Shown: one piece after another, positions 47,649 through 53,705 of the stretch
Layout of the letters: the number at the start of each line of letters is the position of its first letter
Position numbering within the stretch: position 1 is the first letter of the stretch
Assembly: GCA_019308995.1 (NCBI GenBank)
Contig: JAFDHD010000002.1
Span: forward strand, 66,946-122,695
Source: Deltaproteobacteria bacterium
Lineage (GTDB): Bacteria; Desulfobacterota; Desulfarculia; Adiutricales; JAFDHD01
DNA length: 55,750 nucleotides
Direction: 5' to 3'
Translations under genes and position numbers: made by a program
Notes under the pieces: model-generated
What the model saw: the letters and a program-made list of their open reading frames with translations, nothing else
The model's database searches: none
What the model was told of the DNA's origin: nothing

Positions 47649-48674
47649 CTAGCTAACCTTAAGAAGTCCCTTTTCGATCAAGACTTCTCCGATCTGAATG
47701 GTGTTGAGGGCAGCGCCCTTACGGACGTTGTCAGAGACGATCCACATGATAATGCCTCGGTCACAGGAGATATCCTCCCGAATACGACCGACAAAGGTGT
47801 CGTCCTTACCTGCGGCCTCCGAGGCCAGAGGATAATCATTCTTGGACGGATCGTCAATTACGGTCAGGCCAGGGGCCTTTTTCATGAGACGCCGCACCTC
47901 TTCCGGGGTTATTTTTTCCTGTGTTTCGATCCAAACCGCTTCGGAGTGGCTGTAAAAGACAGGCACCCGGACCGTTGTGGCTGAGATCATGATCGAATCA
48001 TCACCCATGATTTTTCTGGTCTCGTTGACCATCTTCATTTCTTCCTTGGTATAGTCATTATCCAGAAAGACGTCAATATGAGGCAAACAGTTGAAAGCGA
48101 TCCGGTGCGGGTAAACCTTTTTCTTCATCTCAGCGCCGCTGAGGAGGGCCCTGGTCTGATCGGCCAGTTCTTCAACCGCCTTCTGTCCGGTCCCGGATAC
48201 GGCCTGGTAAGTTGAAACCACGATCCGTCTGATACCGACCGCGTCGTAAATTGGCTTAAGGGCTACGACCATCTGAATCGTGGAACAGTTGGGGTTGGCA
48301 ATGATCCCGGGATGGCCTTTCAAGGCCCTGGGATTGACTTCGGGCACAACCAGTGGTATATGCGGCTCCATGCGAAAGGCCGAAGAATTATCAACGACCA
48401 CGCATCCTGACTTTACGGCGTGAGGCGCAAACTCCTTGCTCACTGAAGCCCCAGCGGAAAAGAGGGCCAGATCACAGCCTTTAAAGGAATCTTTATCCAG
48501 AACTTCGACTGGAATATCCTTGTTGCAAAATTCGACCGTGCGACCGAGGGAACGTGATGACGCCAGCGGTTTGAGATTTTCCACTGGGAAATCCCGCTCG
48601 GCCAGGATTTTTACCATTTCCCGACCCACGGCCCCTGTGGCGCCTGCCACGGCGACGTTATATTTTTTACTCAT
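47649..48674 (-). CDS. asd: aspartate-semialdehyde dehydrogenase
   Basis: A 341-residue Asd: VAVAGATGAVGREMVKILAE, FSAGASVSKEFAPHAVKSG, VVDNSSAFRMEPHIPLVVPE, the active-site cysteine in IIANPNCSTIQMVVAL, and the phosphate/substrate segment RVPVFYSHSEAVWIET. It reduces aspartyl phosphate for lysine, methionine and threonine synthesis. It follows leuB by 47 bases, an arrangement seen in many bacteria. Confidence 0.95.
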   Translation of the reverse strand: MSKKYNVAVAGATGAVGREMVKILAERDFPVENLKPLASSRSLGRTVEFCNKDIPVEVLDKDSFKGCDLALFSAGASVSKEFAPHAVKSGCVVVDNSSAFRMEPHIPLVVPEVNPRALKGHPGIIANPNCSTIQMVVALKPIYDAVGIRRIVVSTYQAVSGTGQKAVEELADQTRALLSGAEMKKKVYPHRIAFNCLPHIDVFLDNDYTKEEMKMVNETRKIMGDDSIMISATTVRVPVFYSHSEAVWIETQEKITPEEVRRLMKKAPGLTVIDDPSKNDYPLASEAAGKDDTFVGRIREDISCDRGIIMWIVSDNVRKGAALNTIQIGEVLIEKGLLKVS

Positions 48675-48721
48675 TGCTTTCTCCCGGAATACCTTATTTT
48701 CTGCCTTCCTCTATGGTCTTT

Positions 48722-49792
48722 TCAATCCTGACTCAAGAGGTATTTTACCACTAGGTCACCGACTTCAGAGGTGGTGTGTCCCATGCGACCTGCGCCCAAA
48801 TTTTTAACGTCACTTGCCAGGACCGCTTTGATCGCTTCTTCAATACCCTGTGCGGCCTCGGTCTGTCCCAGTTCAGCCAGCATCATCTGTCCGGCGGCAA
48901 TGGCGGCCAGCGGGTTTATGAGGTTCTGCCCGGCGTATTTAGGCGCCGAGCCGCCAATGGGTTCGAACATGGAAACCCGGCCTGGATGAATGTTCCCGCC
49001 GGCGGCGATACCCATTCCGCCCTGGATCATGGCCCCCAGATCGGTGATGATGTCCCCGAACATATTGTCCGTCACGATAACGTCAAACCATTCCGGGTTT
49101 TTAACCATCCACATGCAGATGGCGTCCACATGGGCATAATCTGTTTCCACTTCCGGGAACCCGGCGGCCAGCTCATCAAAGGTCCGCTGCCACAGATCAA
49201 AGGCAAAGGTCAGCACGTTTGTTTTCCCGCACAGGGTCAACTTCTTTCTCTGGCTCCTGTCCCGCGCATACTTAAAGGCGTACTTAAGGCAGCGCTCCAC
49301 CCCGAATCGGGTGTTGATTGATTCCTGGATAGCCACCTCCTGGGGGGTGCCTTTTTTCAAAAAACCGCCCCCTCCAGCGTAAAGGCCTTCCGTGTTTTCC
49401 CTGACAACCACGAAATTGATGTCTTCCGGTCCCTTATCCGCCAGCGGGGTGGCGACTCCCGGGTACAGCTTCACCGGCCGCAGGTTGATATACAGGTCCA
49501 GTTCAAAGCGCAGGTGGAGCAGGATACCTTTTTCCAGGATGCCCGGTTTAACCTCCGGATGGCCGATGGCGCCCAGATAGATGGCGTCTTGATCCTTGAG
49601 CTCGGAAAGAACGTTATCGGGCAGGAGATCGCCCGTGGCCAGGTAACGTGCTCCGCCCAGATCATAATCCTCCAGATTGAGCGTAAATCCATACTTGTCA
49701 GCAGCGGCAGTTAAAACCTTGCAGCCTTCTCGAATGACTTCCGGTCCGGTCCCGTCACCAGGCACCATGCCGATATCATAGGTTAAGCTCAT
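48722..49792 (-). CDS. leuB: 3-isopropylmalate dehydrogenase
   Basis: A 356-residue beta-decarboxylating dehydrogenase: [39 protein letters not shown] (substrate arginines), [16 protein letters not shown], and [20 protein letters not shown] with metal aspartates, then [20 protein letters not shown]. It oxidises and decarboxylates 3-isopropylmalate. Its place after leuCD makes isopropylmalate rather than isocitrate the substrate. Confidence 0.93.
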
Positions 49793-49804
49793 AACAAATC
49801 AACC

Positions 49805-50302
49805 TCAGAGTCGTTTTTGTTTTTTTAATATATACGGTATCAGACCGCCGTCAGCCACCAGTTCGAGCATAAACTCCGGAATGGGTTGAAAGGCAAACCC
49901 CTTTCCCTGACTTAAATTCTTAACCCAACCGGCTTCTAAATCAACCTCAATCTCCTCGCCGGGAGAGAAATTTCCGGCCGCTTCAGCACATTCAATCAAA
50001 ATAAGCCCGATGTTAAAGGCGTTGCGATAAAAGATACGGGCAAAGTACTGAGCCATGACACAGCTCACTCCCGAGGCTTTGATGGCCATCGGGGCCTGCT
50101 CCCGTGAAGACCCGCAACCAAAATTTTTCCCGGCCACAATGACATCCCCAGGCTTGACCCCCTTGGCAAAGGCCGGATCAATATCCTCCATACAATGCCC
50201 AACCAGTTCGGTCACATCCGTGGTGTTGAGGTAGCGGGCCGGGATAATGACGTCTGTATCCACATTATCGCCAAAGACAAAGGTGCGGCCGGTGTATTTC
50301 AT
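49805..50302 (-). CDS. leuD: 3-isopropylmalate dehydratase small subunit
   Basis: A 165-residue swivel domain of the short, archaeal/HacB-like type: [39 protein letters not shown], and [15 protein letters not shown]-like segment seen as [19 protein letters not shown]. It forms the isomerase with LeuC. It lies nine bases after leuC. Confidence 0.94.
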
Positions 50303-50311
50303 TTACCCCTC

Positions 50312-51571
50312 CTATAAATCGTCCGGGCTAATAATGCGACCGGCCACGGCTGACGCGGCCGCGACCGCGGGATTGGCCAGAAAGACCTCGCTTTTTTGAT
50401 GGCCCATTCGTCCGATAAAATTTCGGTTGGTCGTGGACACGGCCCGCTCTCCCTCGGCCAGGACTCCCATATACCCACCCAGGCAAGGCCCGCAGGTCGG
50501 GGGACTGATAACCGCCCCGGCGGAGAGAAATATCTCCAGGAGACCCTCTTTAAGGGCCGTACGATAGATGGTCGGCGTAACCGGAATAATGATCAGACGC
50601 ACGCCGGGGGCGACATGGCGGCCTTTGAGCACCTCGGAGGCGAGACGAAGGTCTTCGATGCGGCCATTGGTACAGGACCCGATCACAGCCTGGTCAATGG
50701 ACACGTCTTTCAACCTTGAAACGCCGACCACGTTTCCCGGCGAATAAGGCCTGGCCACCTGAGGTTCCAGCCCGCTGATCTCATACTCCCGAACCTCAAT
50801 GTAGTTTGCGTCAGCATCGCTCTGATAGAAGGTATACTTACGTTTGGCCCTGGACTCGACATACTCTCGGGTGATTTCGTCCGGGGCAATGATCCCGTTC
50901 TTGGCCCCGGCTTCGACGGCCATGTTGGCCATAGTCAGCCGGCCCTCTAAGGAAAGGGCTTCAATGGTCGGGCCGCAGAATTCCATGGCCCGGTACCGCG
51001 CCCCGTCCACGCCGATATCGCCGATGGTCATCAGGATAAGGTCCTTGCCTCCGACCCATTTCAAAAGTGCGCCTCGGTAAATGAACTTCATTGACTGCGG
51101 CACCTTGAGCCAGGTCTGGCCGGTAATGAAAATACCAGCCGCATCCGTACTGCCCATTCCCGTGGCCATGGCCCCCAGGCCGCCGTAAGTGCAGGTATGG
51201 CTGTCCGCACCGACGACCAGATCACCGGGCAGGACCAGCCCCTGCTCAGGTAACAGGGCATGTTCGACTCCCATGCGGTCCAGCTCGAAGAAATGCTCGA
51301 TTCCCTGCTCCAAGGCGAACTCCCGCACCTGCTTGACCATCTGGGCGGACTTGATGTCCTTGTTCGGGACAAAGTGATCAGGAACGAGCACGATCTTGTC
51401 CGGATCAAAGACCCTGGTAAACCCGGCCTCCTTAAAAACATCAATAGCCAGCGGCGCGGTGATATCGTTGGCCAAAACCAGATCAACCTCAACCTCGACC
51501 ATCTGGCCGGGATGTATTTCTTCCACACCGGCGTGAGCCGCGATTATTTTTTCTGTAATCGTTGAACTCAT
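50312..51571 (-). CDS. leuC: 3-isopropylmalate dehydratase large subunit
   Basis: A 419-residue aconitase-type subunit: VVGADSHTCTYGGLGAMATG, GSCTNGRIEDLRLASEVL and SPPTCGPCLGGYMGVL. The cysteines of the 4Fe-4S cluster lie in SCT and TCGPC. The length (about 420 rather than 465) matches the archaeal/Thermus/Clostridia-like class that pairs with short LeuD. It isomerises 2- to 3-isopropylmalate. Confidence 0.95.
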   Translation of the reverse strand: MSSTITEKIIAAHAGVEEIHPGQMVEVEVDLVLANDITAPLAIDVFKEAGFTRVFDPDKIVLVPDHFVPNKDIKSAQMVKQVREFALEQGIEHFFELDRMGVEHALLPEQGLVLPGDLVVGADSHTCTYGGLGAMATGMGSTDAAGIFITGQTWLKVPQSMKFIYRGALLKWVGGKDLILMTIGDIGVDGARYRAMEFCGPTIEALSLEGRLTMANMAVEAGAKNGIIAPDEITREYVESRAKRKYTFYQSDADANYIEVREYEISGLEPQVARPYSPGNVVGVSRLKDVSIDQAVIGSCTNGRIEDLRLASEVLKGRHVAPGVRLIIIPVTPTIYRTALKEGLLEIFLSAGAVISPPTCGPCLGGYMGVLAEGERAVSTTNRNFIGRMGHQKSEVFLANPAVAAASAVAGRIISPDDL

Positions 51572-51586
51572 AGATGCTGCCCCAGA

Positions 51587-53119
51587 TCAATAAAGCGACC
51601 GGTATGGATTCTGCCTCATGGATTCCAGGCGGTTCAGGCCGGTGATGTACGCCTTGGCGCTGGCGATGATGATGTCCGGGTCGGATCCCTGTCCCAGTGC
51701 CACCCGGCCGTTTTCCTGGAGGCGCACGGTCACCTCGCCCTGAGCATCGGTCCCTCCGGTTAGACTGCTGATGCTGAAATGGATAAGCTTGCTCTGGGTT
51801 CCGGTCATTTTAGCGATGGTGTTATAGGTAGCGTCAATAGGCCCGGTGCCAAAACCCGCTCCCACCACCTGCTCGCCGTTGATTTCAATGGCCACCGTGG
51901 CCGTAGGACGGACAGTCGTGCCGGCGCTGACATTCAGATACACGAGCTTGTATTTCTCCGGGATTCGGACCAGTTCATCGGCCACGATAGCTTCGATGTC
52001 CTCATCAAAGACCTCTTTCTTCTTATCCGCCACCTCCTTGAACCGCCTGAAGAGGCGATTGAGGTCTTCAGCAGAAACCTTATAACCCAGGCTTTCCAGC
52101 TTATCCCTGAAGGCGTGGCGGCCTGAGGTTTTCCCGAGCACCAGCTTGCTTTTCTTGACGCCGATGTCCTGAGGCCGCATGATTTCGTATGTTACGGCTT
52201 CCTTGAGGACTCCATCCTGATGAATGCCTGATTCATGGGCAAAGGCGTTGGCCCCAATAATGGCCTTGTTGGACTGGACGGCCAGACCGGTGATCGTGCT
52301 GACCAGACGACTGGTGGCATAGATTTCAGCGGCATTAACGCGGGTATCGAGCCCGAGTAAGTCTGTTCGGGTCTTAAGGAGCATCACCACCTCCTCAAGA
52401 GCAGTATTGCCAGCCCTTTCGCCGATGCCATTGATTGTTACCTCGACCTGACGGGCGCCATTGAGTATAGCCGCCAGGGAGTTTGCCGTAGCCAGACCCA
52501 GATCGTTATGACAGTGAATGCTGATTATCGCCTTATCAATGTACGGTACGTTGTCGAAGAGATGCCTGATCAGGCCGCCGAACTCAGAAGGGATGGCATA
52601 CCCGACCGTGTCCGGGATGTTGATGGTTGTTGCGCCGGCGTCAATGGTCGCCTCGACCACCTGAACCAGGTAGTCCCGGTCGGTCCGGGAAGCGTCCATG
52701 GGTGAAAATTCAACGTTTGAAGTATGCTTGGAGGCTTGCCGGACTCCGGCCACGGCCATCTCAAGGACTTGTTCCCTGGTCATCTGAAGCTGGTATTTGA
52801 GATGGATGTCCGAAGTGGATAAAAAGACATGCAGCCGAGGATCCTCAGCCATGGCAATAGCCTCCCAGGAAACCTCAATGTCCTTCTCAACGGGCCTGGT
52901 CAGGGCGGTGATCTGGCAGTCTCTGATCTCTTTGGCCATAAGGCTCACGGCTTCAAAGTCTCCCTGCGATGTCATGGGGAAGCCAGCCTCAATCACATCC
53001 ACCTGTAACTTGGCCAGGGCCCGGGCCACCCTCAGCTTTTGGCTGACGTTCATGCTGGCGCCCGGTGATTGCTCTCCGTCGCGTAATGTGGTGTCAAAAA
53101 TAATTACTCGATCAGCCAT
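51587..53119 (-). CDS. leuA: 2-isopropylmalate synthase
   Basis: A 510-residue LeuA with catalytic (about 1-390) and C-terminal regulatory domains: IIFDTTLRDGEQSPGASMNV, then SIHCHNDLGLATANSLAAIL and NAFAHESGIHQDGVLKE. The C-terminal LeuA dimer domain (about 390-510) suggests leucine feedback control. It condenses 2-oxoisovalerate with acetyl-CoA, the first committed step. It is the first structural gene, 217 bases downstream of the attenuator terminator. Confidence 0.96.
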   Translation of the reverse strand: MADRVIIFDTTLRDGEQSPGASMNVSQKLRVARALAKLQVDVIEAGFPMTSQGDFEAVSLMAKEIRDCQITALTRPVEKDIEVSWEAIAMAEDPRLHVFLSTSDIHLKYQLQMTREQVLEMAVAGVRQASKHTSNVEFSPMDASRTDRDYLVQVVEATIDAGATTINIPDTVGYAIPSEFGGLIRHLFDNVPYIDKAIISIHCHNDLGLATANSLAAILNGARQVEVTINGIGERAGNTALEEVVMLLKTRTDLLGLDTRVNAAEIYATSRLVSTITGLAVQSNKAIIGANAFAHESGIHQDGVLKEAVTYEIMRPQDIGVKKSKLVLGKTSGRHAFRDKLESLGYKVSAEDLNRLFRRFKEVADKKKEVFDEDIEAIVADELVRIPEKYKLVYLNVSAGTTVRPTATVAIEINGEQVVGAGFGTGPIDATYNTIAKMTGTQSKLIHFSISSLTGGTDAQGEVTVRLQENGRVALGQGSDPDIIIASAKAYITGLNRLESMRQNPYRSLY

Positions 53120-53335
53120 CCTTACCTCCAGTTAAACGAGTGTAATTATTACCCCAGCGTTACGAGGTCGGTCAAGCACTTTGGGGTTAAATCCTCCAAC
53201 CGATCCTCTTCCCAGGAGATGGACTCTCACTATCGTAAGGAAAGAGCCACCTCACTCCAATCGCTTTAAGGCCGCTTTCAGAACTCCAGGTCCAGAAAAA
53301 TCTCGGATCGAACGCGCCTCAAAAGATAAACCCAT
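53120..53335. other. leader region between the attenuator and leuA
   Basis: No gene seen; a plus-strand frame across 53181-53387 is spurious. On the minus strand this is the transcribed spacer between the terminator and leuA, with CTGGAGGTAAG before the leuA ATG as ribosome site. Confidence 0.5.
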
Positions 53336-53362
53336 AAAAAAACCCCGCCTTGGTGGCGGGGT
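53336..53362 (-). terminator. leu attenuator terminator
   Basis: On the minus strand ACCCCGCC and GGCGGGGT form a perfect 8-bp stem with a five-base loop, followed by seven T residues. It lies 32 bases past the leader peptide stop and 217 bases before leuA, on the leu coding strand. The 3' arm is duplicated exactly inside the leader peptide gene (53403-53410). Confidence 0.9.
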
Positions 53363-53393
53363 CTTTAATGCGCTAAGGTCTAGCTAAACGTGA

Positions 53394-53468
53394 CTATAAA
53401 CCACCCCGCCCCTGACAGCCGGTAAGGCCCAGAAGTAAAAGCAGGGATAATTTCAAGCCACGCTTCAT
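53394..53468 (-). CDS. leuL: leucine-rich leader peptide of the leu operon
   Basis: A 24-residue ORF: MKRGLKLSLLLLLGLTGC then QGRGGL. Nine of 24 residues are leucine, with five consecutive Leu at positions 9-13 using CTG, CTT, TTA, CTT, CTG. AGGAG lies 10 bases upstream of the ATG. Bases encoding residues 20-23 contain GGCGGGGT, identical to the terminator 3' arm. CCCTG in codons 8-9 can pair with CAGGG in codons 19-20. This is the layout of ribosome-mediated attenuation. The peptide also resembles a lipoprotein signal with LTGC, so a tiny lipoprotein remains an alternative. Confidence 0.7.
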   Translation of the reverse strand: MKRGLKLSLLLLLGLTGCQGRGGL

Positions 53469-53496
53469 TTTCAGTTCACTCCTAAAAAGCTGTTTA

Positions 53497-53526
53497 TAAA
53501 TAAACTATATTGATAGGTTATGTCAA
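53497..53526 (-). promoter_or_regulatory. probable promoter of the leu operon
   Basis: On the minus strand TTGACA (53526-53521), an 18-base spacer and TATTTA (53502-53497). Transcription would start near 53490, about 20 bases before the leader peptide ATG. Confidence 0.65.
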
Positions 53527-53705
53527 GTTAAATTTTACCTTTTCCAAATTAAGGTGGTTGATGGGCCAAGGGAGAGTTTAATATTAATCATTCCTTGACT
53601 GGAAATTATGGATTCATCCAGTCTAGCCTGAGACCGCCTCGGTTGACTTATGATTCGCAAGCCTGATACCCTATGAGATCATTAATCGAGAAGGGATGAT
53701 CCAAT
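53527..53705. other. divergent spacer between the leu promoter and the DUF362 gene
   Basis: AT-rich, no gene seen. It presumably also holds the promoter of the plus-strand DUF362 gene; no clear boxes identified. Confidence 0.4.

Follow-up and report, generated by a model that had tools for sequence, protein, structure and literature searches.

What is a short, leucine-rich reading frame doing ahead of leuA in this deltaproteobacterial genome, and could it set the expression of the leucine genes behind it? The window analysed here is a stretch of 55,750 nucleotides, and on its minus strand, 221-349 nt upstream of leuA, it carries what is very probably a ribosome-mediated transcription attenuator of leuACDB(-asd). 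This prediction is built on sequence, conservation, the co-variation of two RNA segments (2 and 3) and predicted folds, and from these we infer ribosome stalling, leucine dependence and read-through.

The genes under such control would be those of the leu operon. Its first gene, leuA (51587-53119, minus strand), encodes a 2-isopropylmalate synthase that scores above the cut-off of the NCBIfam equivalogs NF002086 and TIGR00973; leuC, leuD, a leuB-type dehydrogenase gene and asd follow in this order (47649-51571, minus strand), in the same direction and with short gaps. The initial annotation had compared the locus with the leu attenuation of Gammaproteobacteria. The attenuation part of that comparison is supported, but LeuA itself is closest to proteins of deltaproteobacterial MAGs, the nearest named relatives reaching 63% or less.

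The leader reading frame (53394-53468, minus strand) runs from an ATG at 53468-53466 to a TAG at 53396-53394, and a Shine-Dalgarno sequence, AGGAG (53479-53483, minus strand), is found 10 nt upstream of the start codon. Its product, MKRGLKLSLLLLLGLTGCQGRGGL, is the peptide of 24 residues with nine Leu, five of them consecutive, that had been read from this strand before, and the frame is conserved in the genus mate (G001) and in a member of the second family of the order (G005). Codons 9-13, CTG CTT TTA CTT CTG (53430-53444, minus strand), form the putative regulatory run, and additional Leu codons are present at positions 5, 7 and 15. The relatives share this arrangement, in which consecutive codons for the pathway's end product precede the cognate gene. 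The leader favours less-used Leu codons, TTA and CTT making up 6 of the 9 vs 21% in the operon; overall it holds a mix of TTA, CTT, CTG and TTG, and CTA, the operon's rarest Leu codon, is absent from it. In E. coli, leuL uses CUA Leu codons.

Between this reading frame and leuA sits an intrinsic terminator, a feature that is near-universal in the relatives. The 8-bp stem and the seven T reported in the initial annotation are indeed found at 53362-53336, as ACCCCGCC, a loop ACCAA and GGCGGGGT, with the 3' arm at 53349-53342 and the T-run at 53342-53336. Four segments of the minus strand can be set out from the sequence and its folding. The core of segment 1, CCCUGCUUUU (53437-53446), pairs in the ribosome-free fold with segment 2 and with the bases immediately preceding it. 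Segment 2, the candidate 5' strand of the antiterminator (53403-53410), falls within the last codons of the leader frame and is identical to the terminator 3' arm, both reading GGCGGGGT, as had been claimed. Segment 3, ACCCCGCC (53355-53362), serves both as the 5' arm of the terminator and as the 3' strand of the predicted antiterminator, and segment 4 (53336-53349) consists of GGCGGGG and the seven-T run, that is, the 3' arm and U-tract. The region as a whole folds with an energy of -68.4 kcal/mol vs -45.9 ± 3.75 kcal/mol for dinucleotide shuffles (z -6.0, 0 of 200 as good). When the leader is compared with shuffled leaders, its match to the terminator 5' arm has P = 0.03 in the window sequence; for the two closest relatives the values are P = 0.002 and 0.012.

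Which of these pairings would prevail, and when? Predictions for the different states were made on a transcript ended before the terminator 3' arm, with the ribosome footprint masked at chosen codons. If the ribosome is placed at Leu codon 5, 7, 9, 11, 13 or 15, the 2:3 antiterminator is predicted with a probability of 0.98-0.99; if it is placed at the stop codon, or if there is no ribosome, this pairing is not predicted in the transcript lacking the terminator 3' arm. Folding of the full-length transcript makes the terminator the most stable structure in every case, above the antiterminator, so that the switch would have to be kinetic, the antiterminator winning by forming first. Kinetic switching is usual for ribosome-mediated attenuators. 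As for the hairpin between segments 1 and 2 in the absence of the ribosome, its predicted probability is 0.98 in the window, 0.87 in the genus mate and 0.77 in the second family, vs 0.63-0.70 in shuffled sequences. It had been drawn as a pairing of CCCTG (53446-53442) with CAGGG (53414-53410, both on the minus strand): both segments exist, but the minimum-energy fold prefers a longer hairpin in a neighbouring register, in which CCCUGCU pairs directly with the GGCGGGG segment and the stem extends outward over most of the leader.

The mechanism that these states suggest is the textbook one of ribosome-mediated attenuation. RNA polymerase would transcribe the leader with a ribosome behind it. Scarcity of charged tRNA-Leu would make the ribosome stall in the Leu codons (5-15) and mask segment 1, so that segment 2 stays free; free GGCGGGGT would then pair with ACCCCGCC before segment 4 is made, no terminator would form and leuA would be transcribed. 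With ample leucine, the ribosome would reach the stop codon and cover segment 2, whose last base is 6 nt upstream of that codon, leaving segments 3 and 4 to form the terminator. Should the ribosome be absent, the long 1:2 hairpin would form, and the terminator with it. The initial annotation had proposed antitermination by a stalled ribosome and had suggested folding the leader as a check; the predicted states do switch as an attenuation model demands, and the proposal gains further support from conservation across the order and from the loss of the lipobox Cys described below.

How far does this arrangement extend beyond one genome? The comparison set comprised, besides the window's genome (G000), one genus mate and 39 further members of the order. 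In the genus mate, whose LeuA is 86% identical, a leader MTRSLKLSLLLLLLGLTGSEGRGGL stands upstream of leuA and the terminator core is unchanged; the region has diverged except for the Leu run, CTTGACAT, segment 2 and the terminator. In the second family (G005, LeuA 73%), the leader before leuA is MIYAAKTPLLSLLGLLLSRRRGGL, the Leu run and GGCGGGG...GGTTTGTAG are kept, and a CCCCGCC/GGCGGGG terminator is found 67-96 nt upstream of leuA. In the third family, at about 48-50% in LeuA, leaders with a Leu run and terminators are present at most leuA genes, with other sequences (GCCGGG, GCCAGG, etc.). An automatic scan, which called for five or more Leu within 8 codons and then a terminator within 80 nt, matched 23 of the order's 35 leuA regions vs 7 of 123 outside it, most of these 123 belonging to the same phylum or to neighbouring ones; the loci are related by descent and are not independent. 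Six of the seven outside matches coincide with the end of a single conserved ORF lying upstream, and the seventh (L140) is leader-like. The scan missed or mis-assigned L022, L025, L146, L150 and L154, of which L022 and L025 show Leu-run leaders by eye. Taken together, the alignment of leuA upstream regions, which had been proposed as a further check, finds the Leu-run leader, the terminator and a co-varying antiterminator segment kept across the order.

Two loci outside the order are recorded here as separate observations. L140, from a planctomycete, carries a short ORF rich in Leu, MLSLMTIYNEEHEACMIRRRDNLSLLNLLALGLR, together with a terminator 101-206 nt before leuA, and is possibly an unrelated leu attenuator. 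In L138, from a gammaproteobacterial MAG, a short ORF, MFNSFNQLTSNKATLGLLLLLRQ, is present 102-174 nt before leuA, and a terminator was not detected.

The terminator arms differ between genera, so that one can ask how well each leader fits its own terminator. At the level of genera, the mean duplex energy of own segment-2/segment-3 pairs is -17.6 kcal/mol vs -14.1 ± 0.8 kcal/mol when the partners are swapped between genera, and the own-pair value was matched by 0 of 5000 permutations. Together with the probability of 2:3 pairing in the stalled state, this points to a mutually exclusive antiterminator whose sequence changes together with that of the terminator arm. The genus swap was used because shuffle tests on single sequences are weak in GC-rich leaders and genomes: segment 2 matches segment 3 at P ≤ 0.05 at 9 of 30 loci, the matches of the third family being mostly not significant singly, and the control of fold probabilities against shuffles is likewise weak (9 of 30). 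One genus of the third family (g2) has no segment-2 match.

Does the third family need the first hairpin at all? Across all 30 loci, the 1:2 hairpin has a probability of 0.57 vs 0.55 in shuffled sequences, that is, no excess. It is conceivable, if unlikely, that the attenuator of this family does without a protector stem and works with two hairpins: segment 2, lying in the last leader codons, would be shut by a ribosome finishing at the stop codon. If so, absence of the ribosome would leave the switch on, not off.

Another question is where transcription starts. The promoter-like boxes proposed in the initial annotation hold up in part. A candidate leader promoter (53504-53531, minus strand) can be read as TTAACT-16-TATAGT (53531-53504), for which the consensus scan found one match vs 1.1 expected by chance, or as TTGACA (53526-53521) followed by a poor -10. 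The genus mate and G005 both keep this TTGACA and CTTGACAT, but in the window sequence a good -10 box is missing at a normal spacing from TTGACA; the G005 leader is preceded by a consensus promoter, TTGACA-18-TATAAT. Closer to leuA, the window's genome and its genus mate share a block immediately 5' of the gene, TTGACC-GACCTCGTWAYGYTRRGG-TAATAAT, that is, a conserved promoter-like element TTGACC-N18-TAATAAT (53145-53175, minus strand), which is absent in G005. It lies within the roughly 220 nt that separate the terminator from leuA in the window, and, if it is a promoter, it may let part of leuA transcription bypass the attenuator. The attenuator had been called complete, and its anatomy is confirmed, but this element between terminator and gene qualifies the word.

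Could the attenuator then be real but a minor input, leuA being driven mainly by a promoter of its own at 53175-53145? Among the alternatives this one survives best, as a real possibility that we nevertheless consider improbable. The leader and the proximal element are the two best-conserved blocks between the genus mates, with 200-320 nt of diverged sequence between them. However, the element is only a fair match in its hexamers and its 18-19 nt spacing, it was not reported by the consensus scan, and G005 does without it, its leuA beginning about 64 nt past the terminator.

It is much less probable that the terminated leader RNA or its peptide also acts in trans. The C-terminal RGGL is identical in two families, and there is a precedent for such a role in the reported trans action of the Sinorhizobium meliloti trp leader peptide (PMC7298713); yet antiterminator pairing already explains the bases that encode RGGL, and the leader peptide varies widely in the third family.

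Least probable of all, and rejected here, is that the leader frame is the gene of a small lipoprotein (LPAM or LptM type, with an LTGC lipobox) with its own terminator and a complementarity to it that arose by chance: the N-terminus with its positive charge, the core rich in Leu and the LTGC do resemble a lipoprotein signal to the eye, the oddity raised in the initial annotation, and Pfam LPAM_1 matches the peptide weakly (12.7 bits, cut-off 20), but the genus mate has LTGS, with Ser in place of Cys, and no Pfam match, the G005 peptide is without any Cys, only 6 residues follow the Cys before the peptide ends, and both the location upstream of leuA and the terminator complementarity are conserved. 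A lipoprotein kept while the paired segments are lost had been named as the outcome that would speak against attenuation, and the relatives show the opposite: the pairing is kept and the Cys is lost. The lipoprotein-like look is incidental, a by-product of a Leu run behind basic residues, and it carries a warning for annotation, since a Leu-run leader can mimic a lipoprotein signal.

Attenuation, the reading preferred here for leuA, has a counterpart elsewhere in the same genome. There, trpE is preceded by a leader peptide with four consecutive Trp, MTIRQGQNLVNGLNWWWWQIHIKEVCSPFDLH (WWWW; L169:3089-3187, contig C28 of G000, minus strand), and by a terminator, and the same holds in both relatives (L168 and L170). 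It seems, then, that more than one pathway of this lineage is under ribosome-mediated attenuation. In the window's genome, the terminator of the trp leader is followed by a second hairpin with seven T. No leader was seen before ilvB-type genes (TIGR00118) in the three genomes.

How does the leu leader relate to systems already described? In the literature searched, no report of leucine attenuation in this order was found; proteobacterial attenuation is the subject of Vitreschak et al. 2004, and a related deltaproteobacterium may already have been the object of such a prediction. No Rfam model matches in the window at its gathering score, and a permissive search returns many weak matches that look like chance, one of them to Leu_leader. 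A T-box leader RNA would likewise couple the supply of aminoacyl-tRNA to terminator read-through; here, however, sensing would be done by a translated ORF, and the T-box was rejected because no Rfam T-box match was obtained, either at gathering score or among the weak matches. Leader peptides with Leu codons also precede genes of leucine or branched-chain amino acid biosynthesis in the actinobacterial LEU element (PMC1262725) and in Staphylococcus aureus, with its leucine-rich attenuator peptide (PMC5794164). The LEU element, however, is a pseudoknot, and mutations in the Streptomyces leuA leader did not fit classical attenuation (PMC1262725), whereas the present locus has a plain terminator/antiterminator pair.

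The closest likeness is with enterobacterial leuL (Rfam RF00512, Leu_leader), which shares the Leu-run leader peptide, the alternating pairings, the terminator and the position directly before leuA. The covariance model does match here on the right strand and over its full length (1-148 of 148), but weakly (21.4 bits, E 0.042), well short of the 50-bit gathering score, and a search of the entire genome gives no RF00512 match at E ≤ 0.001. The trp attenuator of the trpL type follows the same logic with a different amino acid and a different gene, and no sequence homology to it is claimed. Leader, antiterminator and terminator co-evolve here across families in which no Rfam model attains its threshold. 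Ribosome-mediated attenuation of leucine (and tryptophan) synthesis would in this way be extended to an uncultured, deltaproteobacteria-like order, and it is only this reach that is new with respect to the known systems.
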